DNA of 39,919 nucleotides from a virus. The stretch covers positions 1 to 39,919 of IMG/VR virus record IMGVR_UViG_3300024054_000031, one strand, 5' to 3'. Position numbers and translations under genes: made by a program. Below the pieces are notes generated by a model. That model was not told where the DNA came from and did no database searches. It saw only the letters and a program-made list of their open reading frames with translations. Shown one piece after another: positions 5,799 to 26,950 of the stretch. Each line of letters starts with the position of its first letter. Position 1 is the first letter of the stretch.

Positions 5799-6224
5799 TT
5801 ATGTATTTCTGAATTTCTGAAGTTTTTTTTTAACTGTCTCCCGTGTCAATCCTGCCCGACCCAATACACGGCACATTTCTTTTAACGTACCTTCGCTGTA
5901 ATCCTCTACGATCACTCCATTGATCGAATGCACAAGACAGCAAAAGGCCATCGTATTCACATCGATCTCATTCAGGATCATAAAGAACAGTTGCCTTAGA
6001 TTGTTCAGTTGCTCAAACGCTTCCTGTTTTTTATCATTGCGGATGAACGTATATACAGGATTCAAATGTTTTTCCGTGAAATCCTCTACGGAAGAACCGA
6101 TTGAATTTTCAAGCAATAAATACCGGTTAAACTTTGCATAACAGTCTGCAGTCAGGCATTCATGATCGTTGTTGATCTCAATTTTTACTGTCTTCAGTCC
6201 CCGGCGAAGCGTAATCGTTTCCAA
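5799..6224 (-). CDS. Tail assembly chaperone, upstream segment (gpG-like)
   Basis: This 141-aa helical protein lies directly before the frameshift segment and the tape measure, the standard place for the tail assembly chaperone. The start is probably TTG at 6222-6224. An in-frame TAA two codons upstream rules out a longer product, and no ATG lies near. The first 47 nt overlap the end of the glycosyltransferase gene. Near the C-terminus, three AAA codons (residues 132-134) form a slippery run at 5823-5831, followed by seven residues and a stop. Slippage gives the longer G-T form. The TTG start without a clear ribosome-binding site suggests translation coupled to the upstream gene. Confidence 0.8.
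   Translation of the reverse strand: METITLRRGLKTVKIEINNDHECLTADCYAKFNRYLLLENSIGSSVEDFTEKHLNPVYTFIRNDKKQEAFEQLNNLRQLFFMILNEIDVNTMAFCCLVHSINGVIVEDYSEGTLKEMCRVLGRAGLTRETVKKKLQKFRNT
5823..5831 (-). other. Programmed -1 frameshift slippery site (A9)
   Basis: The mRNA-sense strand reads GTT AAA AAA AAA CTT, which contains an A AAA AAA slippery heptamer in the zero frame. A -1 slip enters a frame that is open from here to 5452. No stop lies between the slip point and the downstream ATG at 5784, which argues that the fusion is real. Tail-chaperone frameshifting at this gene position is well established in lambda-like phages, but this particular site is inferred. Confidence 0.8.
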
Positions 6225-7068
6225 GTGTTACAATGTTTACGTTTTGATTCATTGCGATATGTCCTATACGTCCGTATATGGTTTTCTTTGTAATGCTTTC
6301 CAGAAGATCATATGCACGTGAAATGTCCGGATTGAATCGGATCGCTTCGTGCAGATGATGCAAGGCACGACGCTGACGGCCAAGCACAAGATAACATAAG
6401 GCAATCCGAAGGTGAACCTCGCCCTTCGCTTCGATATCCGGGTACATTTCTCCGGCCTCCGTCAGATAATATATTGCCCGGTCGCATTCACCAATGGATT
6501 GCAGTTCCAAGCCCATGTAATACATTTCCCGTGCCTGGTTCGGATTTTCTTCTAACGCCTTTTTCAATATGCGAATATTTCTTCCTGGGTCATGCTTACG
6601 GGAATATCCGTCCGACCTGCTTATGATCACAACTGGTATATGCCGATCAACTGCACGGTTCAGATACTCATGGCACTTTCCGTTCCAATACACTTTTTCA
6701 CTTCGCCGGAATATGCGGGATTGTATGCTACTTGTTTCATCAGTCCGAACCGTTACAGTATATACATATTTATTATCAATAGATTCTTTGATCTTATTAA
6801 TGGAGCCAGGGATTAAAGTCTCATCACAATCAATGGATAAAATATAATCTCCGGTGCAATATGTTAATAACTTATTGCGATGCAACGAAAAATCATCCTG
6901 CCAGACATCATGATAAACCAATGCCCGGTATTTCCTTGCAATAGCAATCGTATTATCTGTCGAGCCGGTATCCAGGATCACAATCTCATCTACACCCGTG
7001 AGAGATTGCAGGCAACGCTCAATTACCTTAGATTCATTCCTGCTTAGGATTGCAGCCGTCAGACGCAT
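6178..7068 (-). CDS. Family 2 glycosyltransferase with TPR-like C-terminal half (296 aa)
   Basis: The N-terminal ~100 residues form a GT-A/GT2 fold: AAILSRNES at the start, the nucleotide-binding LDTGSTDNT near 32-40, WQDDFSLHRN near 56-65 and the metal-binding DCD at 80-82. Residues about 150-270 consist of paired helices resembling tetratricopeptide repeats. This two-part layout is seen in SunS/WcaA-type sugar transferases. Its location is unusual: it lies inside the tail operon, overlapping the preceding gene by 10 nt and the chaperone by 47 nt. That suggests co-expression with virion proteins and a role in glycosylating a virion or host protein. Substrate and sugar cannot be read from the sequence. 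Confidence 0.9.
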   Translation of the reverse strand: MRLTAAILSRNESKVIERCLQSLTGVDEIVILDTGSTDNTIAIARKYRALVYHDVWQDDFSLHRNKLLTYCTGDYILSIDCDETLIPGSINKIKESIDNKYVYTVTVRTDETSSIQSRIFRRSEKVYWNGKCHEYLNRAVDRHIPVVIISRSDGYSRKHDPGRNIRILKKALEENPNQAREMYYMGLELQSIGECDRAIYYLTEAGEMYPDIEAKGEVHLRIALCYLVLGRQRRALHHLHEAIRFNPDISRAYDLLESITKKTIYGRIGHIAMNQNVNIVTLGNDYASPGTEDSKN

Positions 7069-16547: not shown

Positions 16548-17123
16548 TCAAATATTGATTCCCTGAACCTGGTTGTATATTTTTATTAGGTCTTTCCCTG
16601 ATTTGTCGTTTTGTCTTACGGCAACCATCGGATTAATAAGATAGACTTTATGTGTAGGTTGTAGGTAATGACAATATATCGATTCAAGTAATACGTTCCG
16701 GTTAATAAAGCTGTAAAGTATTTTTGATACATCTGCCCGGAATTTCTTATGGTAACATATCGCATGAGTAGCCATTCCAAATCTTAGCCGTTGCCAGTTT
16801 TGATACCGGTGGTATATCCTGGTACGCAACTCCGCTCCGAAATAAAGCATGTCCCAGTCCTCTAATGCGATCTGCGATAAAGCTACACGCAAACATTTAA
16901 CAGTCTCGTATATAAATACACAGTCGTCTTCCAGGATCAATACATGTCCTTCGGCCGTTTGAAGTATTTCATAAACAGCTTTGATGTGGTTACCATCGTG
17001 TTCCTTTAACTCGTAATTTATCCCGAACCTTTTGCATTGTCCTTTTATTGAAAGCATATAATCCGTCCGGTTATGACGGTTGATGATATATATACTTTCA
17101 AAAAAATCGAATGGATTTTTCAT
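16548..17123 (-). CDS. GT25-like glycosyltransferase (191 aa)
   Basis: The sequence has hallmarks of family 25 glycosyltransferases. It starts with SIYIINRHNRTDYM (residues 10-23), the acidic motif VLILEDDC is at 61-68, WDMLYFGA is near 90-97, and THAICYHK is further on. Family 25 enzymes act on lipooligosaccharide or collagen-like substrates. It is the last gene of the accessory block, coupled to the 92-aa gene by an ATGA overlap, and directly upstream of the terminase promoter region. At 191 aa it is shorter than many GT25 proteins. Likely roles are modification of a host surface glycan or of a virion protein, but the substrate is unknown. Confidence 0.82.
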   Translation of the reverse strand: MKNPFDFFESIYIINRHNRTDYMLSIKGQCKRFGINYELKEHDGNHIKAVYEILQTAEGHVLILEDDCVFIYETVKCLRVALSQIALEDWDMLYFGAELRTRIYHRYQNWQRLRFGMATHAICYHKKFRADVSKILYSFINRNVLLESIYCHYLQPTHKVYLINPMVAVRQNDKSGKDLIKIYNQVQGINI

Positions 17124-17398
17124 GCATGCTTCAGTATCCAGAATTTTATCCTTTCCCTCACTGTCATCTTTCGCAAGGGAAGCATCGTCAGGATTCTTAC
17201 ATTCTGATCAATGAAATCCTGCTCAATCCACAGGATTCCCAGTTTCATTCCCTGGATTTTTACCAATTCCGGAGCTTCTTCCAAGACGATCCATTCGTCC
17301 ACGATAAACCCTTGTGGTTGGCGCATCTTTACCACGACTCTTTTTCCCCTTTCTATTGTAACTTTTAAGGGCTTTGACGTATGCATCTCTTTGCTCAT
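17120..17398 (-). CDS. Hypothetical protein of unknown function (92 aa)
   Basis: This basic protein reads as beta strands (KVTIERGKRVVVKM, then FIVDEWIVLEE) followed by a strand-helix region. It ends in a 4-nt overlap with the GT25 gene, which supports it as coupled and real. The start, ATG at 17398, lies inside the 113-aa frame at 17223-17564, an unusually long overlap of 176 nt. I do not recognise the family. Confidence 0.65.
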   Translation of the reverse strand: MSKEMHTSKPLKVTIERGKRVVVKMRQPQGFIVDEWIVLEEAPELVKIQGMKLGILWIEQDFIDQNVRILTMLPLRKMTVRERIKFWILKHA

Positions 17399-17564: not shown

Positions 17565-17665
17565 TTTTGAAATTTTCCTTTGTAAAAGTAATTTTTTTCT
17601 TACTTACTTACTTTACTTTTTTTTATTTCTATTTACATTTATATTTATATTTTCATTTTCATTTT

Positions 17666-17709
17666 CCATATGGAGCCTCATATGGCTCTCCATATGGGAG
17701 ACCATATGG
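17666..17709. repeat. Array of four CATATGG palindromes phased at 12 bp
   Basis: Four near-identical 8-mers start at 17666, 17678, 17690 and 17702, exactly 12 bp apart: CCATATGG, TCATATGG, CCATATGG and CCATATGG. The second to fourth can also form a larger hairpin: CATATGGCTCTCC (17679-17691) pairs with GGAGACCATATG (17697-17708), with a 5-nt loop and one bulge. There is no T run after it on either strand, so it is not a typical terminator. It lies in the 181-bp gap (17565-17745), otherwise AT-rich microrepeats. An operator or protein-binding array is plausible. Confidence 0.75.
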
Positions 17710-17745
17710 TAAATTTTATCTTAAAAAATACATAAAAATTTCTGT

Positions 17746-18144
17746 TCATAAATTATTCATAACTTTTTCAAAAAGTGCAATAGTCTCTGAAGTGCAAGGA
17801 GTTACAAAAGAGTTTGCATCGACGTAAAACTTGATCGTCATGTCATCGTGATCTACCCAATAACCTGAGAATTTTCTGGCCGGGAATCGCAATTTTTCGT
17901 ACGTTTTTTCCTGCTCTTCAATTCCCATTTCATATAGTTCAACATTAACTATTTCGATTGGGACTTCAATGATTTGTCTAAACCATTCATGTTTTAACGC
18001 TGCCCGATTAAACACCCTTATTGAAAGACTATAAATAATCATATCATATCTGGCAATCAAACTTTGTATAACACGGCGTAGATATGAGCCAGATAAGCTT
18101 TTAATCTGTTTTGTATCTACCTTGTTTTCGGTCATCTTACACAT
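17746..18144 (-). CDS. Hypothetical protein (132 aa)
   Basis: The product begins MCKMTENKVDTKQIKSLSG. An in-frame ATG three codons further in is equally possible. It looks like a small soluble alpha/beta protein: an N-terminal helical half, then strands such as FSGYWVDHDDMTIKFYVDANSF. No membrane segment or known motif is seen. It is the first gene upstream of the CATATGG array, in the AT-rich accessory block, and I do not recognise the family. Confidence 0.65.
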   Translation of the reverse strand: MCKMTENKVDTKQIKSLSGSYLRRVIQSLIARYDMIIYSLSIRVFNRAALKHEWFRQIIEVPIEIVNVELYEMGIEEQEKTYEKLRFPARKFSGYWVDHDDMTIKFYVDANSFVTPCTSETIALFEKVMNNL

Positions 18145-18191
18145 ATCTTAAAGTTTAAACAAGTAATATTTTTTAGCAAGTTAACACCCAT

Positions 18192-18398
18192 TTAAAGAAC
18201 ATACACTTTCATAAGTTGAAAAAATTGCCCCAACTCATATCCTTTATATTCGAGTGCTTTCATAACTTCATTATGAAATCTACTATCCTTATCGTGCAGG
18301 CAATATAAACAAACATCTTTTGGTATGTTTATTTCTTCTGTTATGTCTTGGTCAGAACCGGTCGCATCAACACTGAATGTTACTTTTAAGTTTGTCAT
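18192..18398 (-). CDS. Hypothetical protein (68 aa)
   Basis: A short acidic protein with the beginning MTNLKVTFSVDATGSDQD and a CLYCLHDKD segment whose CxxC pair could bind metal, though no second pair is present. It is isolated by 47 bp and 36 bp gaps from its neighbours, within the AT-rich accessory block. No function can be assigned. Confidence 0.55.
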   Translation of the reverse strand: MTNLKVTFSVDATGSDQDITEEINIPKDVCLYCLHDKDSRFHNEVMKALEYKGYELGQFFQLMKVYVL

Positions 18399-18434
18399 GT
18401 CTTTATGTTTTAAGATAATAATAAGAAATAAAAA

Positions 18435-18608
18435 TTACTTCTTTTCTACTATTAAATAGCCAAACTGTATGCGGATAAAAGGTAATATAAAATTGTGAGT
18501 TATACCTTCTATCCCAATTTTTTCTTTTACATAAGCATCTTTCCAATACCCAAATCCAATGACAGGACATAGCTTAAGGTGCCTTGTTCTTAAAATGTAT
18601 TTTCCCAT
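18435..18608 (-). CDS. Small hypothetical protein (57 aa)
   Basis: A frame opens with ATG at 18606-18608 and ends with TAA at 18435-18437. The product, beginning MGKYILRTRHLKLCPVIG, is basic and rich in aromatic and hydrophobic residues, with no clear membrane helix. It fills an otherwise empty 216-bp gap between two genes and starts 6 bp after the upstream stop, which supports expression. I do not recognise it. Confidence 0.5.
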   Translation of the reverse strand: MGKYILRTRHLKLCPVIGFGYWKDAYVKEKIGIEGITHNFILPFIRIQFGYLIVEKK

Positions 18609-18614
18609 ATAATG

Positions 18615-18881
18615 TTATTTAGTTATGTTATGTTTTTTCCTGTCTTTCTTAATCTTTGAGTTTATATACTGACATCCCAGCAAAAATGCAAACAAATAAT
18701 CTAAGTCATCTGTTCTATAAATTTTCTTATTGCCTTTCATCAGAGTAAATTTTGTATCACGGTATTTTATTCTCAATCCATTTACTTTTGCCTCAGACTT
18801 ACATAGTTCATAGAGTAATATGTCTAATTCTCCGCCTGTCATTTTTTCTATAGTATATATAGGCTTTTTAATCCTAATCAA
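18615..18881 (-). CDS. Hypothetical protein (88 aa)
   Basis: A small basic protein beginning MIRIKKPIYTIEKMTGG. The middle forms an alternating pattern (LRIKYRDTKFTLMKGNKK) suggestive of a beta hairpin, followed by a helix with CQYINSKIKKDRKKHN. The start overlaps the stop of the upstream membrane protein by 4 nt, so they are coupled. Family unknown. Confidence 0.6.
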   Translation of the reverse strand: MIRIKKPIYTIEKMTGGELDILLYELCKSEAKVNGLRIKYRDTKFTLMKGNKKIYRTDDLDYLFAFLLGCQYINSKIKKDRKKHNITK

Positions 18882-19147
18882 ATAATACCTTTATCAATAT
18901 CTCTATGAATTTCAAGTAATGAATCCCCTGTCCCTTTACCAAAAGTCCAATTAATTGGTTTTCTCATCACATAACTCATTAATAAATTCGCTTTATTAAC
19001 GCCAAATAATAAAAATATAAGTACGAATGGAATAATCATCAATGAAATACCAATCATCAGTGTAGATACTCCTAACAACCGAATACCTATGCCTAAAAAC
19101 ATGCAACCAAAATAATTGGTTACTTTCTTTAATTTAAGTGTTTTCAT
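18878..19147 (-). CDS. Small membrane protein (89 aa)
   Basis: Residues about 12-53 are strongly hydrophobic and form one or two membrane helices (GCMFLGIGIRLLGVSTLMIG, then SLMIIPFVLIFLLFGV). The N-terminus is lysine-rich, placing it on the cytoplasmic side by the positive-inside rule. The C-terminal part is soluble, with a WTFGKGTGD segment. It overlaps the next gene by 4 nt. There is no lysis context here, so it is more likely an accessory envelope protein than a holin. Confidence 0.6.
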   Translation of the reverse strand: MKTLKLKKVTNYFGCMFLGIGIRLLGVSTLMIGISLMIIPFVLIFLLFGVNKANLLMSYVMRKPINWTFGKGTGDSLLEIHRDIDKGII

Positions 19148-19158
19148 TGTTATAATTT

Positions 19159-19530
19159 TTACTTGGGATTTTTTATTATTTCAACAGTTTCGATATATTC
19201 GGCTTTGTGGAGATACTCTTTATTAAGTAAAGCCTCATCTAGTGTTAGATATTCATGATATGTAATGACCTTTCTCCCTAAATATTTATATACGTTCACA
19301 AAATACCGGCGCTCGGCAGTTTCTTCAGGTTTTTCTTCAGTCCTCTCTAATCGCCTTAACCTTATTTCATACTCAGCTAACTTTTTGTACATCCAAGCAT
19401 GAATAGCTGAGTTAAGTGGCATTTGGGGATCTAATTTAAGAATTTTTTTCACACTACAATGACAGTCTTCCTGGAATGATTCTGCAATCTTTTTTATTTG
19501 CTCAAATATTTCTTTGTCCTTCGGGTTCAT
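19159..19530 (-). CDS. Hypothetical helical protein (123 aa)
   Basis: A charged, mainly helical protein beginning MNPKDKEIFEQIKKIAESF. An EERY-like region near 90 (TAERRYFVNVYKYLG) is followed by a short helix. No membrane segment is seen. The 95 bp upstream (19531-19625) hold nothing I can identify beyond AT-rich sequence. It ends 11 bp from the membrane protein gene. No function can be assigned. Confidence 0.6.
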   Translation of the reverse strand: MNPKDKEIFEQIKKIAESFQEDCHCSVKKILKLDPQMPLNSAIHAWMYKKLAEYEIRLRRLERTEEKPEETAERRYFVNVYKYLGRKVITYHEYLTLDEALLNKEYLHKAEYIETVEIIKNPK

Positions 19531-19625
19531 ATAGGTTTTTTTGGGGTTCTTTGATTATTTGTGGAATTAATTCAATTATTCATATATACTTTTCCTTATC
19601 CCCCTAATAAAGCAAATAAAGCGGT

Positions 19626-19967
19626 TTATTGTTCCTCATGATGCTTAAGTTTATCGTTAATTTCTTTAAACAAATTCATTAGCTTTTGCCATTCGGGATT
19701 AATAGAAAGCTGATTCTCCATTTCGTATTTGCGTATTTTCAACAAATCCTCAACCCAGCCCAATAAACCACATAAAAAAAATACAATGAAAATAACAAGC
19801 GGGAAGGTTATGTACCAGTTATTAAACATCCACGTCCTGAACGGGGAATTGTTCATTTCCTTTATCGCAATATAAAACAATAAAGCAAACTGGACATAGC
19901 CTATGTATTGACGGCTCCTGTCTAACCATATCTTATATTTTGCTATTTTCCTGAAAGTTATCTTCAT
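19626..19967 (-). CDS. Small membrane protein with helical tail (113 aa)
   Basis: Two hydrophobic segments are visible, near residues 20-37 (YIGYVQFALLFYIAIKEM) and 51-71 (WYITFPLVIFIVFFLCGLLG). A soluble coil-like tail of about 40 residues ends KLKHHEEQ. The start overlaps the stop of the aldo/keto reductase by 4 nt, so it is translationally linked to the metabolic cassette. It may anchor or accompany those enzymes at the membrane, but this is only inferred from coupling. Confidence 0.6.
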   Translation of the reverse strand: MKITFRKIAKYKIWLDRSRQYIGYVQFALLFYIAIKEMNNSPFRTWMFNNWYITFPLVIFIVFFLCGLLGWVEDLLKIRKYEMENQLSINPEWQKLMNLFKEINDKLKHHEEQ

Positions 19968-20839
19968 TTTAATCCGTCTAATAATTTATAATCTTTTTCT
20001 GACATTTTAAATTTCATGGCAACTGCATTTTCTATCGCCTGTCGCCCGCTCGTAGCCCCAGGTATTGCAAAAACGGATTTATGATGAATCAACCAGGATA
20101 ACGCAATCTGCGATGCCGTAACATTGTATTTTTTACACAAATTTTCAATGACCTTAATAACAGGTTCACTTTTCTTTATCCCCTCCGGCTTAAACCAATA
20201 AGAACGCTTACGCTCGCCAATGTTATCCAAAAGTTCGGGATGCTTATGAAACTTTCCCGTCAGTATGCCCAATTCAAGCGGGGAATGAGCAATAATAGCA
20301 ATACCAAGCTCTTTCGACACTTCAAGCAATCCGTTGTTTTCAATTTCCCTGTCTAAAAGATTGTACTTAACCTGATTGGAGAATAATCTGATTCCTGACC
20401 TTTGAAGCACCTCCCATGCACAAATCATTTTATCGACAGAATAATTGCATACCCCGATGTTTCTTATCTGCCCGCTTTTTAAAAGAATTGCCATAGCCCC
20501 CATCTCCTTTTTTGTGGACGAAAACCCCAACGGGTGATGAATCTGATAAAGACTGATAGGATACGGATTTAATTTTTTTGTCCTGTCTCCAATGGTTTTG
20601 ATAATATTCGACGCCGTACGAAACATCGGGAACCACTTTGTGGCAATAAAAACCTCATCGGCTCTTTGCCCGTTGCAATAAAGTGAATTTCTTAACGCTT
20701 CTTCCGAGCCTTTATAGTATTCTGCCGTGTCAAACCAATTTATGCCATTATCAATGGCGGATTTTACAATGTCATAGACAATACCTGTCGGGAACTGACC
20801 GAAATAACGACAACCTATGCCTATTTTTGAAAGCTTCAT
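19964..20839 (-). CDS. Aldo/keto reductase (291 aa)
   Basis: This is a full-length AKR-family oxidoreductase with an NAD(P)H-dependent carbonyl/alcohol chemistry. The catalytic tetrad is visible: D37 and Y42 in WFDTAEYYKGSE, K68 in ATKW and H101 in YQIHHP. The C-terminal region has QIALSWLIHHK and the cofactor-related PGATSGRQ. It is the last enzyme of the GT2-methyltransferase-radical SAM cassette. Its start overlaps the stop of a 30-codon microORF in an ATGA arrangement. In sugar pathways AKRs may reduce keto groups of nucleotide sugars, but the substrate here is unknown. Confidence 0.92.
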   Translation of the reverse strand: MKLSKIGIGCRYFGQFPTGIVYDIVKSAIDNGINWFDTAEYYKGSEEALRNSLYCNGQRADEVFIATKWFPMFRTASNIIKTIGDRTKKLNPYPISLYQIHHPLGFSSTKKEMGAMAILLKSGQIRNIGVCNYSVDKMICAWEVLQRSGIRLFSNQVKYNLLDREIENNGLLEVSKELGIAIIAHSPLELGILTGKFHKHPELLDNIGERKRSYWFKPEGIKKSEPVIKVIENLCKKYNVTASQIALSWLIHHKSVFAIPGATSGRQAIENAVAMKFKMSEKDYKLLDGLK

Positions 20840-20928
20840 CTGATCCCCTTTAAAAAACGTAAAACACTGTTGCGCATATGCTTATAATAAATCCGCAAAT
20901 ACCAAAACTTAAAAATATCCTTATTCAT
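20836..20928 (-). CDS. MicroORF between radical SAM and AKR (30 aa)
   Basis: This frame starts with ATG at 20926-20928, inside the last codons of the radical SAM gene, and stops with TGA at 20836-20838, overlapping the AKR ATG. It is thus coupled at both ends. The product begins MNKDIFKFWYLRIYYKH and is rich in K, R, Y, F and W, resembling a cationic amphipathic peptide. It could be a substrate of the radical SAM enzyme, a small regulatory peptide, or a remnant. A leader-core pattern for a RiPP precursor is not evident, as no Cys or typical recognition motif is seen. Confidence that it is translated is moderate; function is unknown. Confidence 0.5.
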   Translation of the reverse strand: MNKDIFKFWYLRIYYKHMRNSVLRFLKGIR

Positions 20929-21802
20929 GGCAGTTCTTTAATTTATTCTGCTTCCAGTATCTTTCCTTGTTTTCCCCATGAGACATCATGTACCCGCAAT
21001 CACGGCAAAATGCCAGCTGGGGATCAATATTAAAACAAAATCCTTTTTTTCTGTGTTCACGCATACGCTTCCCGTTCCAACATTCCCACCAGGATTCATA
21101 AAAAACATTGCCCGTTTCAACAAAAGCAATGCAGGTGACAAGAGTGCCGTCTGTGTTCAATGTGTTAAATGAAAACGGAGCTACGCAATGACGTTCATCA
21201 ACAAACCCATCCGGCATGGTGCTGTACTTCGCAGTGCCGGCATTGTTGGTTGATATGTAACCGTCTTCCAACCCTTCAATATGCCAGTTGGTTACATTTT
21301 GAATTTTAATCCGTACTGGTGATACCGCTGCACGGGATTGCCAGTATTCATATTTTTCAGGTTCAAATAACGAAATACGCACATAATGCAAATACCTGAA
21401 TTTTGATAAATCCTCCTCCAGCTTTTTTGTCAACCTGTCCCCGTTTGTGGTGATATGAAACCGGATTCGATAACGTTCAGCTACCTCACAAAATTTTAAA
21501 ATGTCTTTGTGCAATAACGTCTCCCCCCGACCGGTAAAACTGATCTGACGTATAAACCTGCGCCATACACCCATCCTTTTTATAAACCCGGCAAACTTAT
21601 CCACATCCATATATGGGGGCTGCCTGCGCCACCATTGCTGATAAAAACCCCATGGGTATTCGTCAATGATTCCCGGCGCATGATTAGGGCAGAAATTACA
21701 TTTACGGTTACACGGGTTGGCAATATTGATCGTAAACTGAAATGGCAAAAGGCTGTACCCTCCCGAAATCCGATAAAGAAAATATTTAATCGCCTGTATC
21801 AC
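20921..21802 (-). CDS. Radical SAM protein with SPASM-like C-terminus (293 aa)
   Basis: The [4Fe-4S]-binding motif is CNRKCNFC with C31, C35 and C38. A SAM-binding GRGETLL follows near residue 92. The C-terminal third has several further cysteines (HCVAP, VTCIAF, GFCFN, FCRDCGYM) matching the pattern of a SPASM/auxiliary-cluster domain. SPASM enzymes often modify peptides, though others act on sugars or other substrates. The start is GTG at 21800-21802, sharing a G with the TAG stop of the methyltransferase. The gene is full length and undamaged. It belongs to a cassette with GT2, methyltransferase, microORF and AKR. Confidence 0.92.
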   Translation of the reverse strand: MIQAIKYFLYRISGGYSLLPFQFTINIANPCNRKCNFCPNHAPGIIDEYPWGFYQQWWRRQPPYMDVDKFAGFIKRMGVWRRFIRQISFTGRGETLLHKDILKFCEVAERYRIRFHITTNGDRLTKKLEEDLSKFRYLHYVRISLFEPEKYEYWQSRAAVSPVRIKIQNVTNWHIEGLEDGYISTNNAGTAKYSTMPDGFVDERHCVAPFSFNTLNTDGTLVTCIAFVETGNVFYESWWECWNGKRMREHRKKGFCFNIDPQLAFCRDCGYMMSHGENKERYWKQNKLKNCHE

Positions 21803-22428
21803 TATTCTGATTTTTTTAATTCATATATCCGGAAATTCCAACAAAACATGCTGCGTGCCATTGACCGCCACGTGGTTTTCTTTCGCAATATGCGCAGTAA
21901 CGGACGGATGCCGATCAAAAATGCTTTCCAGTTGGCAATAAAAAATATCTTTTTTTGCCTGACTATTTTCAAACCGGAAGGAATTATGAGCCATTTTGTA
22001 AAATGCCCAAACCTGTACTCAAAAAAATGCTCTTCCCCCCAAAGCCATTGGGCGTTTTCCGGCAAATTAATGTAAATTGAACCGCTGTCCTTTATCCCGT
22101 CTTTCATCTGCTTCATCAACCATAACGGATTTTGAATATGCTCCAACAGATCAAAACAAAAAATGACATCATAGTGATTTTTCTTTTGTATGCTGTCAAA
22201 GTTTAAATCCTGTGTATCCCATTGTTCTACATTCAGATTTAATTTCTTCTTCATGTAATCCATCCTCGGATTTGCTTCACCTACGTCTAAACAAACGGCG
22301 TTTTCGGACAATTTTAAAAACGGGATGACATGATTGTTCATGTACCGTTCAATCCGCTCCGGGACAACAGCCCATAACTCAAATGGGCTTTGCTTTCCGG
22401 GATATAATTCTTTATTCATATTCACCAA
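21802..22428 (-). CDS. Class I SAM-dependent methyltransferase (208 aa)
   Basis: A Rossmann-type methyltransferase is visible from motif I (CLDVGEANP, residues 46-54), an acidic position in motif II (WDTQDL, near 70-75) and the FDLLEHI segment at 92-98. The rest of the protein, including a basic C-terminal tail (RILRKKTTWRSMARS), is typical of glycan or small-molecule methyltransferases. It overlaps the GT2 gene by 7 nt and touches the radical SAM start, so it is an integral part of the cassette. The substrate is not deducible. Confidence 0.88.
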   Translation of the reverse strand: MVNMNKELYPGKQSPFELWAVVPERIERYMNNHVIPFLKLSENAVCLDVGEANPRMDYMKKKLNLNVEQWDTQDLNFDSIQKKNHYDVIFCFDLLEHIQNPLWLMKQMKDGIKDSGSIYINLPENAQWLWGEEHFFEYRFGHFTKWLIIPSGLKIVRQKKIFFIANWKAFLIGIRPLLRILRKKTTWRSMARSMFCWNFRIYELKKSE

Positions 22429-23228
22429 CGGTAAAAAATAATAGCATACATATCTCTTGCAAGCCTGTAAATCAAATATAAAATAGTAGATAATTTGCAG
22501 CCGTATCTCAAAATATAATATAACCGGATTTTATAATTCCCTGAAACATATTTCAATCTTTTCCATCGCTTTCTTGTCCTTGTAACACTTTCTTTTGATT
22601 CCACCAGGACTGCCGAATGGAAATTAAGACAATGAAATCTGGTATGTAAAATCAATTCGAGAACTATTGGGTAATCCCAAACATTAAAATGCTTGGCAAA
22701 CATTTCAAAGTCAATCCATTTGTCAAATTCTGATTTTCTTATGCAATACGTCGGGGCATGAATATACGCATTGCCTTTTAATAAATTATCATATGTGATA
22801 TGCGATTGAAGAAACATGACATCAAAGTCTTTTTTGATAAACCCCGCTCCGTTGTCAATTCCAATCTGAGTATAACACAACCCACAATCAAGGGCTTTGT
22901 CCATATATTCCACCTGCTTTTGGATTTTCCCCGTGTCTGACCAGTAATCATCACAATCGCAAAACATAATGTATTCCCCCTTGCATCTTTTAAATCCTTC
23001 TGCATAAGCACGCATCATCCCACAATGATCCATGCCCTGAATGACATTTATTAATCCCTTGTCGTAATATTCCTGGATTATTTTTATTGAACCATTGGTG
23101 CTCCCGTCGTCAATTACAATAATTTGTATCTTGTAAGGGGTTATTTGCGACAAAACGGAATTTATTGCCCTGCTTATTGTATGGGAGTGGTTGTAAGATG
23201 TAATGATAACTGAAACCTTATAATTCAT
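22422..23228 (-). CDS. Family 2 glycosyltransferase (268 aa)
   Basis: The N-terminal GT-A domain is clear: VSVIITSYNHSHTI at the start, the nucleotide-binding DDGS at 40-43 and the metal-binding DCDD at 91-94. It is about the normal length for a GT2 enzyme. The C-terminal ~50 residues (about 215-268) are strongly basic and aromatic (TRTRKRWKRLKYV, then LYYILRYG), suggesting membrane or acceptor contact. It is the first gene of the radical SAM cassette, 22 bp from the next upstream gene. It could transfer a sugar to a lipid, glycan or protein. Confidence 0.92.
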   Translation of the reverse strand: MNYKVSVIITSYNHSHTISRAINSVLSQITPYKIQIIVIDDGSTNGSIKIIQEYYDKGLINVIQGMDHCGMMRAYAEGFKRCKGEYIMFCDCDDYWSDTGKIQKQVEYMDKALDCGLCYTQIGIDNGAGFIKKDFDVMFLQSHITYDNLLKGNAYIHAPTYCIRKSEFDKWIDFEMFAKHFNVWDYPIVLELILHTRFHCLNFHSAVLVESKESVTRTRKRWKRLKYVSGNYKIRLYYILRYGCKLSTILYLIYRLARDMYAIIFYRW

Positions 23229-23250
23229 GTTCGTTTTTTTGAACTGATAA

Positions 23251-23475
23251 TTATTTCATCTCTTTCTGATCCCGTTCATCAAACATACTGAAAACTACCA
23301 TCATTACAAGAAAAATAAAACCAAGAATATGAAGGAAAATGAAAGCTCCAACATAATAGGCAGGAATATAACTAATGATCCTACACACAGCCAGAATCAC
23401 CGTCATTAGGAAAGAAAAAATAAGCAACGTTAGCCAAAGAGTTTTCCAATGCTTTTTGAAGTGTTGGGGTTTCAT
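23251..23475 (-). CDS. Small membrane protein (74 aa)
   Basis: Two hydrophobic helices are visible: residues about 13-34 (LWLTLLIFSFLMTVILAVCR) and 40-64 (YYVGAFIFLHILGFIFLVMM). The ends are charged, with a basic N-terminus (KPQHFKKHWK) and an acidic and basic C-terminal tail. It precedes the cassette by 22 bp. A holin-like function cannot be excluded, but the location suggests an accessory membrane protein. Confidence 0.6.
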   Translation of the reverse strand: MKPQHFKKHWKTLWLTLLIFSFLMTVILAVCRIISYIPAYYVGAFIFLHILGFIFLVMMVVFSMFDERDQKEMK

Positions 23476-23509
23476 TGTTTATTATTTTGTTATCCGGTAT
23501 ATGGCGGGC

Positions 23510-23529
23510 ATTGATATGTTAGTATCAAT
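23510..23529. repeat. Inverted repeat in the gap before the cassette
   Basis: ATTGATA (23510-23516) and TATCAAT (23523-23529) are perfect 7-bp arms separated by six bases. The palindrome sits in a 55-bp gap immediately after the stop of the 105-aa gene. No T run follows on the minus strand, so it is not a standard terminator; it could be an operator or a weak hairpin. Confidence 0.4.
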
Positions 23530-23530
23530 A

Positions 23531-23848
23531 TTAAAACACTACATCGAGTTTACGTTCGAGCTTTGTAATTTCTTCTCTAAGTTCTGAAACCTCATCATTT
23601 AATTGATTAATTTGTTTTTCAGCCTGATTTCTCATGTCTTTATTAGTTTCCCTTATGGTTTCAATACTTGATTCAATTCTATCATATATTTCTTTCGTCC
23701 ATTGACTTCTCAATTCGCAAACAGTGTTCGTACTCATTAACGGGCATAGTTGTTTGATATAATCCTCCAAATGATTTTCAATAATTGATTTAACTCTATC
23801 AATTTCTTTATCTATTTTCGGACAAGTGTAACTAAAATCTAATCCCAT
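23531..23848 (-). CDS. Coiled-coil hypothetical protein (105 aa)
   Basis: The protein begins MGLDFSYTCPKIDKEIDRVK. The last half (residues 60-105) is a continuous charged coiled coil, ending EVSELREEITKLERKLD. One CPL and one CE pair of cysteines are present in the first half. No other motif is visible. It is the first gene of a series of small uncharacterised genes at 23.5-26 kb. Confidence 0.6.
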   Translation of the reverse strand: MGLDFSYTCPKIDKEIDRVKSIIENHLEDYIKQLCPLMSTNTVCELRSQWTKEIYDRIESSIETIRETNKDMRNQAEKQINQLNDEVSELREEITKLERKLDVVF

Positions 23849-23859
23849 ATTATTAGTTA

Positions 23860-24210
23860 TTAGTTACATAATTCGATTAACACATCCGCATGGCATGACT
23901 TATCCAATGGACAGAAACAGGCCAAGTCTTTTCCTTTAAGGATAGAAATGTTTGGGACTTTTGGCAACCATTTTGGTAGCTTTCCTGTTATCCATTTTTC
24001 GTAAAGCCAAATAATGTCATCTAAAGAATGTCCGCCTATTTCACTCCAATAACACCATGAACCTTTTGTTGGTCCTGTTTGTTTATAACACAGAATCCAT
24101 CCGTCGTTGGTTAATTTGAACGGATTCCCAAATTTTGAAGGTCTCCCGACGTAGGTTGCATTTTCGGGCATCCTCCATCCTTTTACTCGTTTTCTTTGTA
24201 TTCGTTTCAT
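23860..24210 (-). CDS. DUF4326-like protein (116 aa)
   Basis: The phrase ATYVGRPSKFGNPF near the start and the C-terminal CFCPLDKSCHADVLIEL match the DUF4326 family, small proteins of unknown function frequent in phages. The start is set at ATG 24210 (MKRIQRKRVKG), overlapping the upstream stop by 4 nt; the open frame extends 34 codons further upstream but overlaps the neighbour. Conserved Cys/His residues in the C-terminal motif suggest metal binding. Function is unknown. Confidence 0.75.
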   Translation of the reverse strand: MKRIQRKRVKGWRMPENATYVGRPSKFGNPFKLTNDGWILCYKQTGPTKGSWCYWSEIGGHSLDDIIWLYEKWITGKLPKWLPKVPNISILKGKDLACFCPLDKSCHADVLIELCN

Positions 24211-24545
24211 GCAAATCCTCTTCCGGTCTTTACTAACACCCATTTGTTTTTCCCCTGTCTTTGATAAACAGCACTTCTCATAGGCAAATCCAGGATAGCC
24301 CGCCAGTCGCATTCTGGCTGTAGTCTCGCCCTTATTTCTATATACATAAGGGTCTTCCCCTTATTCCTTTCCTCCCATTTTTTGGGTGCTTCCATGAAAT
24401 ACAACTTCCCATCTTTTTTGATCCACCACCCACCAAATCCATTGTAGAGTCGTGTGTTCATGGGAAGGCGTTGTGAAGTATAGCCACAGTTCAGGCAGCC
24501 GGAAATCCTTCCTTCAATCGGTGGTAGTAGTTTTCTTTTCGTCAT
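24207..24545 (-). CDS. Hypothetical protein (112 aa)
   Basis: The protein starts at ATG 24545 (MTKRKLLPPIEGRIS), or perhaps at 24563. It is basic and rich in aromatic residues, with a CLNCGY pair near residue 17 that could bind metal. Its end overlaps the DUF4326-like ATG by 4 nt, and its start lies about 30 nt inside the upstream gene, so it is translationally coupled. No family is recognised. Confidence 0.6.
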   Translation of the reverse strand: MTKRKLLPPIEGRISGCLNCGYTSQRLPMNTRLYNGFGGWWIKKDGKLYFMEAPKKWEERNKGKTLMYIEIRARLQPECDWRAILDLPMRSAVYQRQGKNKWVLVKTGRGFA

Positions 24546-24855
24546 ATTTGCAAAACTTTCCACATAGATAGTCAGCTATTTTTATACATTGTATATAAAA
24601 TGGTGCTGAAAAATCCAAATTGTCAACCTTGTTTGGGTCATGTTGAAAAACACCAAAATCGACAGAATCAATATGTATGCTACTTGCTGGTATTCCAGAA
24701 AAACACTCCAATTTAAATCCTTTTTTGTTTTTCCGTATGTATAATCTCACACCATCGCCGTCAGATGAATAATAACTTGATACCCATTTCGAATAATTAG
24801 GAGATATTGCTTCTGTTAATCTCCATTCATGCCTATTTTTCAGTATTATTTCCAT
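24514..24855 (-). CDS. Hypothetical protein (113 aa)
   Basis: A soluble protein beginning MEIILKNRHEWRLTEAISP, with beta strands in the first half and a DYLCGKFCKYDEKKTTTTD tail. The acidic, threonine-rich ending overlaps the next gene by about 32 nt. There is no membrane segment or known motif. It belongs to the AT-rich accessory series. Confidence 0.6.
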   Translation of the reverse strand: MEIILKNRHEWRLTEAISPNYSKWVSSYYSSDGDGVRLYIRKNKKGFKLECFSGIPASSIHIDSVDFGVFQHDPNKVDNLDFSAPFYIQCIKIADYLCGKFCKYDEKKTTTTD

Positions 24856-24878
24856 GTCTATTTTGTTATTAAATCCAA

Positions 24879-25292
24879 TTACTTGTTATTATTCATTAAA
24901 GCAAATACTCTTTTACATCCAGCAACGTATGCTTTCTTTTCCCATTCTCTGTGTGGGCATCTCAAATCATATTCTGGATGGTCTAATCCGTGATGCCATA
25001 TTTCAAACTCATATTCAAAATCTGAATCAGAAAAACAAAGTATAGCATTAGTTGAAACTTTATTATTTGCTTTTATACAATTACCTGAACCCTTAGAAAT
25101 CCTTCGTTGATTGAATATTCTATCAGTATTTTTTCTCCAAAACGTTTCAGGTAAGGATGGATGTTGATAAGATGAGCGTAATTCGATTAGCCCTTCTTTT
25201 TTGCTTACAACCGTGTAGGTGATATTACTACCTGTCCATTTTGCCGGACTTTTAAATACATCACCGATATTTATTTCAGAATATGGTATCAT
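24879..25292 (-). CDS. Hypothetical protein (137 aa)
   Basis: The N-terminal part (MIPYSEINIGDVFKSP) has a short strand followed by a basic region (RIFNQRRISKGSGN). The C-terminal half has several histidines, one in WHHGLDHP. The start overlaps the upstream gene by 4 nt. I see no conserved catalytic motif and do not recognise a family. Confidence 0.6.
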   Translation of the reverse strand: MIPYSEINIGDVFKSPAKWTGSNITYTVVSKKEGLIELRSSYQHPSLPETFWRKNTDRIFNQRRISKGSGNCIKANNKVSTNAILCFSDSDFEYEFEIWHHGLDHPEYDLRCPHREWEKKAYVAGCKRVFALMNNNK

Positions 25293-25714
25293 AATGAAAT
25301 ATGTTTCTTCAGATTTTTAAGTCTTTTGCTCTCTTCCGGATACACTTCAAAGAACCATTTTATTCTCCCCCGCTCATGGTTGCTGTATCCTTCTATGTTA
25401 AATATCTCATCTTGTTCAATAGGTTTACAAGGAGAGAATGATTCCAACGGTAGAGAATAATGTTCACAATCCGGCCAACCACCATTGATAAGTTTATACA
25501 CTCCAATCCCAAAGTGGTTTGAAATCACAAACGGGTTTTCTGTTTCAATCTTTATTGCTTCGATTATGGTATATAACCTTGATTTATTTAGGGAACACTC
25601 GTAATTATACCACCATAATAGATGTTCTTTGTTTTCCTGCACTTTACAGTACCCGAATTGCACTTTAACAGGTTCCCCCTGCCAAAAGTATTTTTGATTA
25701 GATTTTGTTTTCAT
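25289..25714 (-). CDS. Hypothetical protein (141 aa)
   Basis: A soluble protein beginning MKTKSNQKYFWQGEPVKV, with an aromatic region (HLLWWYNYECS) near residue 32. No motif is recognisable. It overlaps the next gene by 4 nt, and the 52-bp gap upstream (25715-25766) carries no clear signal. Likely co-expressed with the 137-aa gene. Confidence 0.6.
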   Translation of the reverse strand: MKTKSNQKYFWQGEPVKVQFGYCKVQENKEHLLWWYNYECSLNKSRLYTIIEAIKIETENPFVISNHFGIGVYKLINGGWPDCEHYSLPLESFSPCKPIEQDEIFNIEGYSNHERGRIKWFFEVYPEESKRLKNLKKHISL

Positions 25715-25766
25715 TTCTAAGTTGTAAAATCCATTTTTATCTGTTTTTTACTTTCCCGAAAAGATT

Positions 25767-26126
25767 TCACCGATAATCCAGAAACCCAACTCCTGCAAAT
25801 TCTTTTAGTTCAGCGCAACAATAGCGAGCCATACGTAAAGGTAATTGTTTTTTCTTGCGAATTAATTGGAACATTGAATGTTTAGGCTTATGTAATTCAA
25901 CACTTGGATAATTTTCTTTTACAAACTTCAGTAATTCAGGAGGATCAACAGTTGTTAATTGCATATGTGATGAATGTTTTACGCCGCTTTTCTTAACTAA
26001 ATCATACAAAACAATACTATCCTTACCGCCTGAAAAATTAAGATAAAATCCATTTGGCGATAATTCTAAGGCTAATGATTCAGCCTTTTGGATTTTTTCG
26101 ATTGTTTTCGTTATTTTTTCTTTCAT
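25767..26126 (-). CDS. Shortened PAPS reductase-like protein (119 aa)
   Basis: The protein has the ATP-pyrophosphatase loop SGGKDS at residues 32-37 and the conserved YCCAELKE region at 103-110, placing it in the phosphoadenosine-phosphosulfate reductase family. Such proteins normally run to about 200-250 residues, and the segment after the CC motif (G/R/E-rich) is missing, with a stop at residue 120. It may be a truncated enzyme, a partner of another protein, or an ATP-binding remnant. It overlaps the upstream 33-aa gene by an ATGA. Phage members are sometimes linked to DNA or sulfur modification, which is only inferred here. Confidence 0.8.
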   Translation of the reverse strand: MKEKITKTIEKIQKAESLALELSPNGFYLNFSGGKDSIVLYDLVKKSGVKHSSHMQLTTVDPPELLKFVKENYPSVELHKPKHSMFQLIRKKKQLPLRMARYCCAELKEFAGVGFLDYR

Positions 26127-26224
26127 TGTTTCTTATATTTATGAAATGTCAAAACTGACAAGACAGATAGCAGCATCACGATTTTGAATAACGCTGCCGT
26201 CCAATGCCATATCAGAATATCCAT
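26123..26224 (-). CDS. Small membrane peptide (33 aa)
   Basis: The frame starts with ATG at 26222-26224, directly after the upstream stop, and ends in an ATGA overlap with the PAPS-like gene. The product, beginning MDILIWHWTAALFKIVMLLS, is a single hydrophobic helix of about 23 residues with a lysine-rich end. The coupling on both sides supports translation. No function can be assigned. Confidence 0.5.
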   Translation of the reverse strand: MDILIWHWTAALFKIVMLLSVLSVLTFHKYKKQ

Positions 26225-26542
26225 TTAATTCTTTTTAGTCGGATAAACCGAGAACGGCGATACCGCTCCCGGAAATATAATGTGATGATGGTTGGACAGA
26301 TATGCCCTTTCATCATCTGTTAGTAAGTACTCAGGGTGGATCATCACAGGGTCCTCTGAGATTAATACGATCCTGGCTCTGATCTTCCGGTCGTCTGCCA
26401 GAGAGGAATGACCATAGACCTTTATAAGCACTTCCTGACCGACAGCCAGGTTTAGCCGGAAAGTGATTCGGTTGGCTTTTCGCTGCAAAACTATTGCAGT
26501 TATCAAAGCGATAAATGCAATGATTATGAATATAGTTGTCAT
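26225..26542 (-). CDS. Membrane-anchored hypothetical protein (105 aa)
   Basis: An N-terminal hydrophobic segment (TIFIIIAFIALITAIVLQ, residues about 3-20) anchors the protein. The rest is soluble, with RITFRLNLAVGQEVLIKV strands and a histidine cluster (NHHHIIFPG) near the end. The stop is immediately followed by the ATG of the 33-aa peptide. No family is recognised. Confidence 0.6.
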   Translation of the reverse strand: MTTIFIIIAFIALITAIVLQRKANRITFRLNLAVGQEVLIKVYGHSSLADDRKIRARIVLISEDPVMIHPEYLLTDDERAYLSNHHHIIFPGAVSPFSVYPTKKN

Positions 26543-26554
26543 ATATCAGTTTTT

Positions 26555-26950
26555 TTATATTAACCTTTTCATTGGAAACAGTTTTTCCGGTCTGACACCG
26601 ATCTGAAAAAGTATCGTATCCATGCGTTCACGATACGATTTTTCAGTTTGATAATAATCTACTACCTTTCTTATTGCGTGCATTCCGGTCGAGTGGTTTT
26701 TTCGAAAATCCAAACATATCTGGTTGTTCGATTTTTTTGTCAATCGGTTCAATAAGAAAATAACTATCTGACGTGGTTCAGCAATCTCACGCTTTTTAGT
26801 TTTTAGAAATAAATCGGTTTCCGAGATACCGTATATCTCACAAACAGTTACCGGTATTTTGTCAGATAAATCTTTCACGAATGTTTTATTTTCAATCCGC
26901 TTGATCCAGGATTCAATTTGAAGTCTTAAAAGTGTATCGTTTGCGCTCAT
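26555..26950 (-). CDS. DnaA domain IV-like protein (131 aa)
   Basis: Residues about 38-105 match the C-terminal DNA-binding domain of DnaA: the helix-turn-helix segment EPRQIVIFLLNRLTKKS is followed by a weakened version of the DHTTVxHA signature (KNHSTGMHAIRKV). There is no AAA+ domain, so this is a stand-alone DNA-binding module. It could bind an origin or act as a regulator. It is the first gene after a duplicated early-promoter box at 26958-27006 and the last of the replication-linked genes. Stand-alone DnaA domain IV proteins are known in several phage groups. Confidence 0.85.
   Translation of the reverse strand: MSANDTLLRLQIESWIKRIENKTFVKDLSDKIPVTVCEIYGISETDLFLKTKKREIAEPRQIVIFLLNRLTKKSNNQICLDFRKNHSTGMHAIRKVVDYYQTEKSYRERMDTILFQIGVRPEKLFPMKRLI

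Follow-up and report, generated by a model that had tools for sequence, protein, structure and literature searches.

Gene content and layout of the cassette

The DNA analysed here, which we refer to as the window, is a 39,919-base IMG/VR virus record with portal, terminase, head and tape-measure genes. Its portal has relatives at 32-35% identity in Croceibacter P2559, Alistipes, Parabacteroides and Bacteroides B124-14-type phages, and by its sequence the virus is a siphophage related to phages of Bacteroidota. Two further records, L002 and L003, hold nearly identical versions of this phage.

On the minus strand, between positions 19,964 and 23,228, lie five open reading frames, recovered where a first-pass annotation of the letters had placed a glycosyltransferase, a methyltransferase, a radical SAM enzyme, a microORF and a reductase. 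These are a 268-aa GT2 glycosyltransferase (22,422-23,228), a predicted 208-aa SAM-dependent methyltransferase (MT; 21,802-22,428), a BtrN-like radical SAM enzyme (20,921-21,802), a 30-aa microORF (20,836-20,928) and a 291-aa aldo/keto reductase (AKR; 19,964-20,839). Neighbouring frames overlap by 1-8 nt: GT2 and MT share a GTGA start-stop (with an alternative MT start, ATG, just after it), MT and the radical SAM gene overlap by 1 nt, the radical SAM gene and the microORF by 8 nt, and the microORF and AKR by 4 nt. The earlier view of these genes as one coupled unit is borne out by these overlaps. As AKR also overlaps by 4 nt the gene for a 113-aa membrane-like protein (19,626-19,967, minus strand; no significant family match), the unit reaches beyond AKR. 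On the other side, a 74-aa membrane-like ORF (23,251-23,475, minus strand) lies directly upstream of GT2.

All four enzymes have Pfam matches that agree with the classes first assigned to them (radical SAM/SPASM-like, methyltransferase, glycosyltransferase and NAD(P)H-dependent reductase). GT2 matches PF00535 (1.5e-28), retains the DDGS (residues 40-43) and DXD (D91-C92-D93) motifs, and scores with both TuaG/EpsE-type polysaccharide transferases and GtrB-like phage glycosyltransferases. AKR matches Aldo_ket_red (PF00248, 1.5e-51) and carries the catalytic tetrad D37/Y42/K68/H101. MT matches Methyltransf_23 (PF13489) at 2.2e-8, scoring 34 bits against a cut-off of 27; its motif I, glycine-rich in class I SAM methyltransferases, reads DVGEANPRM, and its structure prediction reached a pLDDT of only 35. 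Searches of Pfam and PHROG-type families returned no match for the microORF. We also considered membrane anchoring through amphipathic tails and rejected it, the helical moment being no better than that of shuffles for GT2, the radical SAM enzyme and the microORF, and marginal for MT.

The cassette is carried in a variable island (17,600-26,550) bordered by a conserved gene (17,120-17,398) and a DnaA C-domain gene (26,555-26,950). These two border genes adjoin in L010, a phage of the same group, and are separated by about 9 kb in the window, which identifies the cassette as an insertion in the island. In related siphophages the island genes have no homologues; the one exception is the radical SAM enzyme, which distantly resembles radical SAM proteins from other phages. 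The absence of the cassette from these relatives, together with its presence in two unrelated phage contexts (described below), supports its acquisition as a block. The AT-rich surroundings noted earlier were confirmed for the flanking block only (GC 0.30-0.34); the cassette itself, at 0.36-0.42, is close to the structural genes.

Several other genes of this phage merit description. The border gene at 26,555-26,950 (minus strand) is conserved, and the phage protein it encodes contains the C-terminal DNA-binding domain of bacterial DnaA; a gene at 25,767-26,126 (minus strand) encodes a short PAPS-reductase-like protein (119 aa; phrog_424, 2e-14, with part of the family covered). Two additional glycosyltransferase genes belong to the core of the siphophage group and are kept in L008, L010 and L015: a GT25-like gene beside the terminase (16,548-17,123) and, inside the head-tail block, a GT2 gene with a TPR-like tail (6,178-7,068), both on the minus strand.

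Related cassettes in other phages

The cassette recurs in two other contigs. The first, L004, shares 2.4 kb with the window at 92% nucleotide identity and nothing else. The shared stretch spans the small upstream ORF, GT2, MT and most of the radical SAM gene, inside which the contig ends; the position of AKR lies beyond that end. The GT2, MT and radical SAM proteins of the two phages are about 93-97% identical (GT2 96%, MT 93%), and the 74-aa ORF has its homologue at the same place (54% over 83 columns, 6e-28). The surroundings in L004, however, are those of another kind of phage, podovirus-like and distantly resembling Flavobacterium elemo podoviruses, with DnaB, SSB and GroES genes and a portal of PHROG 6547 rather than the PHROG 7376 of the window. 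Between the two cassettes dN/dS is 0.09-0.12, and synonymous divergence is 0.12-0.30 in the cassette and about 1.2 in the 74-aa upstream ORF, consistent with a cassette that was exchanged recently and is under purifying selection.

The second contig, L061 (G178:C23, 9746 bp), was found by a protein search of Omnitrophota genomes and sits in a bin of that phylum; a YopX-type gene and the ORFs flanking the cassette suggest a phage contig that was binned with a bacterium. It carries all four enzymes in the same order and on the same strand, with identities to the window of 48% (GT2), 61% (MT), 61% (radical SAM) and 53% (AKR). The YopX-type gene and an unassigned 194-aa ORF are inserted among them. 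MT motif I is unusual in both phages (DVGEANPRM in the window, DVGERNPRM in L061), and AKR has a shorter N-terminus in the window. In L061 the radical SAM and AKR genes overlap directly, without a microORF between them, and the microORF is probably incidental rather than a conserved member of the set. Similarity extends to the flanks: the 113-aa protein has a blastp homologue downstream of AKR in L061 (39%, 1e-18), a 132-aa ORF downstream of the cassette (17,746-18,144, minus strand) weakly resembles an ORF downstream of the L061 cassette (30%, 1e-7), and the upstream ORFs of L061 resemble those of L004. Because these upstream homologues lie on the same side of an independently assembled cassette, a chimeric assembly of L004 is unlikely.

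The recurrence of GT2, MT and the radical SAM enzyme in L004, and of all four enzymes in L061, argues that they travel together as one selected unit. On sequence comparison the cassette is a tool that phages share and swap, with close copies in two or more unrelated viruses besides this one. Viral scans, made with the cassette proteins and in one case with the portal, yielded no further full cassette. Nor did the scans with cassette proteins return a close relative of any member carried singly, a scattering among relatives that the first-pass annotation had named as evidence against its reading. There was likewise no cassette match in a genome collection (queried with the radical SAM enzyme), plasmids, phage records, Chloroflexota or the phylum of a Heimdallarchaeota bin. 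The closest cellular relatives fetched for AKR, at 46% identity, come from Anaerolineales and Heimdallarchaeota; they have no cassette neighbours beside them, so neither was taken as the donor. Since the genome collections searched, which left Bacteroidota genomes outside, held no close bacterial source cluster, the acceptor of the pathway cannot be read from genomic context.

The radical SAM enzyme

The radical SAM protein matches the Pfam families Radical_SAM (2.2e-12) and SPASM (1.1e-6). With a profile built from the three cassette proteins, BtrN ranked first among solved structures (1.6e-6; next 3.4e-3). With a wider profile that also included bacterial and Campylobacter-phage relatives, BtrN reached 3.9e-35, far ahead both of SpeY (4.4e-9), the next match and another twitch dehydrogenase according to its PDB title, and of RiPP maturases. 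A structure model of moderate confidence (pLDDT 60, pTM 0.65) also aligned best to BtrN in VIA-align (Z 16.4, 3.5 Å over 220 residues), with SuiB at Z 14.4. Foldseek placed generic radical SAM/SPASM folds first for this model, and viperin-like folds appear lower in the structure list. We base the BtrN assignment on the profiles and VIA-align.

All seven cluster cysteines are kept. C31, C35 and C38 form the CX3CX2C motif, and C206, C224, C266 and C269 form one four-cysteine auxiliary cluster that is conserved in L061. All seven follow the order of the cluster ligands of BtrN; the auxiliary cysteines align with its C169, C187 and CKNC pair and share its CX17C spacing. The likeness to this enzyme of butirosin biosynthesis thus comprises the CX3CX2C core and a single CX17C ... 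CX2C site, in addition to the best profile and fold match. One auxiliary cluster ligated by four cysteines is a feature of BtrN-like twitch dehydrogenases (PMC9012708). The hallmark of SPASM peptide maturases, two auxiliary clusters with seven cysteines, is by contrast lacking: despite the Pfam SPASM match, only four C-terminal cysteines are conserved. These features identify the predicted protein as a BtrN-family member and not a RiPP maturase.

BtrN carries out a two-electron oxidation of an aminocyclitol hydroxyl to a ketone, in which the auxiliary cluster likely takes an electron (PMC9012708). The cassette enzymes differ from it in their partners, an AKR in a phage that also encodes a glycosyltransferase and a methyltransferase, and in having NN[AP]G for the NRGG of BtrN. 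This motif, N151-R152-G153-G154 in BtrN (numbered from the profile alignments and the C16/C20/C23 numbering in PMC9012708), reads N-N-P-G in L061 and N-N-A-G in both L004 and the window, where Asn187 takes the place of Arg152. The arginine is kept in Campylobacter phage CJLB-12, in the bacterial locus L072 and in other viral radical SAM proteins that have the motif. In the BtrN structure Arg152 presumably lies by the substrate hydroxyl and acts as the base. As it is an asparagine in every cassette copy, simple BtrN-type dehydrogenation may not hold, and the enzyme may isomerise its substrate instead of simply oxidising it.

More distant relatives from bacteria are encoded by two BtrN-like genes in L072 (714-9000), an Omnitrophota locus that, read by eye, appears to be of the capsule/Kdo-type polysaccharide kind. 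Its neighbouring genes, also read by eye, include a Gfo/Idh-like oxidoreductase, a KpsF-like isomerase, an aminotransferase, methyltransferases and glycosyltransferases.

Proposed carbohydrate tailoring and alternative readings

On balance, and with modest confidence, we favour the reading that the cassette is a mobile, co-inherited carbohydrate-tailoring set, carried by phages that share related structural genes with Bacteroidota phages, with a host envelope glycan as the likeliest acceptor. In the proposed scheme, the BtrN-like enzyme would abstract hydrogen at a sugar carbon that bears a hydroxyl, oxidising or isomerising the sugar; AKR would use NAD(P)H to reduce the carbonyl so formed, for a net inversion or other redox change; MT would cap the sugar by O-methylation; and GT2 would attach it to the acceptor. 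An O-antigen, capsule or lipid-linked precursor altered in this way during infection could change receptors or exclude competing phages. Host surface glycans have been proposed as the target of other phages' glycosyltransferases (PMC7029224).

Several lines of evidence support carbohydrate tailoring. First, the same genes occur in the same order in three different surroundings, allowing for the insertions in L061, and conservation of the set as a block across unrelated phages implies a selected product. Second, the sugar-linked product suggested at first reading agrees with the BtrN-like enzyme, the catalytic motifs of GT2 and AKR, and the radical SAM relatives in a polysaccharide-type locus. 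Finally, the phage group keeps two other glycosyltransferase genes. Against this reading, the analysis revealed no gene for nucleotide-sugar supply, no polymerase and no GtrA-like flippase. A more specific version, that these phages make a sugar foreign to the host through a BtrN-family enzyme with the Arg152-to-Asn change and a dedicated AKR, the pair acting with changed chemistry, for instance as a two-enzyme radical epimerase or deoxygenase on envelope glycans, is possible but doubtful.

The main rival holds that the sugar is destined for the virion, whose capsid or tail proteins would be glycosylated with a methylated, epimerised sugar. The two core glycosyltransferase genes in the head-tail block and beside the terminase would suit such a role; relatives with both of these genes nevertheless lack the cassette, which also occurs in L004 beside a different structural module, and we consider the rival unlikely. 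That the genes are unrelated auxiliary metabolic genes gathered without a joint pathway is, in our judgement, distinctly improbable. The two ORFs inserted in L061 do show that the island tolerates turnover, yet the four enzymes stay together and in the same order in different phages at 48-61% identity, they are tightly overlapping and under purifying selection, and none has a close relative carried singly in the viral scans.

Hypermodification of phage DNA or of a nucleotide-derived molecule, as an escape from host defence, is improbable to a high degree. Phage glycosyltransferases can glycosylate DNA, as stated in PMC7029224, and viperin-like folds do appear for the radical SAM model; BtrN clearly outranks viperin, however, GT2 matches polysaccharide transferases, and the window proteins scanned (a set without some small ORFs) include no hydroxymethylase, thymidylate-synthase-like or deazaguanine gene. 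Finally, the peptide-linked product raised by the first-pass annotation was not supported, and a RiPP-like pathway in which the microORF abutting the radical SAM gene would be a precursor peptide modified by the radical SAM enzyme, MT and reductase is hardly credible: radical SAM/SPASM folds include RiPP maturases, but L061 keeps all four enzymes without the unconserved microORF, and the enzyme has a single four-cysteine auxiliary site and BtrN, no RiPP maturase, as its closest profile match.

The tailoring set we favour can be set beside three known phage systems. Campylobacter phages CP220 and CPt10 carry an interchangeable radical SAM block (PMC2853527), and one radical SAM protein of CJLB-12 is a 25% relative of ours, with the auxiliary cysteines and an NRAG motif. 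The published block, however, contains five radical SAM genes and an amidinotransferase (PMC2853527), and the stretch of CJLB-12 examined has no GT2, MT or AKR homologue. In pelagimyophages the hypervariable host-recognition region mixes glycosyltransferases with radical SAM gene cassettes, and its proposed effect is a change in the O-chains of the host; unlike our cassette, it is dominated by GT8, and the part of that study considered here describes no fixed GT2-MT-radical SAM-AKR operon (PMC7029224). The Gtr seroconversion cassettes (GtrA-GtrB-Gtr) also include a phage-borne GT2, and the GT-A part of our GT2 matches the GtrB-like PHROG 841. This match is confined to the N-terminal third of that family. 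Our cassette adds a radical SAM enzyme, MT and AKR, and no GtrA family match was found among the neighbouring membrane-like ORFs.

Our searches of the open-access literature returned no description of a GT2-MT-BtrN-like radical SAM-AKR operon in phages, in line with the earlier remark that this exact combination is undescribed. Glycosyltransferase modules of phages and radical SAM modules of Campylobacter phages are known. The phage glyco-genes known to us mostly come as lone transferases or as short Gtr operons. The cassette is a fuller tailoring set than these, one that could oxidise or isomerise, reduce, methylate and transfer. As an expressible system it would help to find a new glycan, and it could test whether phages remodel envelopes with radical enzymes.

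The cassette radical SAM enzymes would also make up a subfamily of BtrN whose active site is altered. As a separate observation, several other phage radical SAM proteins (L064, 9875-10798; L066, 9839-10852; L067, 9875-10822; L071, 9983-10666; L065, 4454-5317) resemble BtrN in carrying N/D-R-G-G ahead of their auxiliary cysteines; they represent a widespread phage group that looks uncharacterised.
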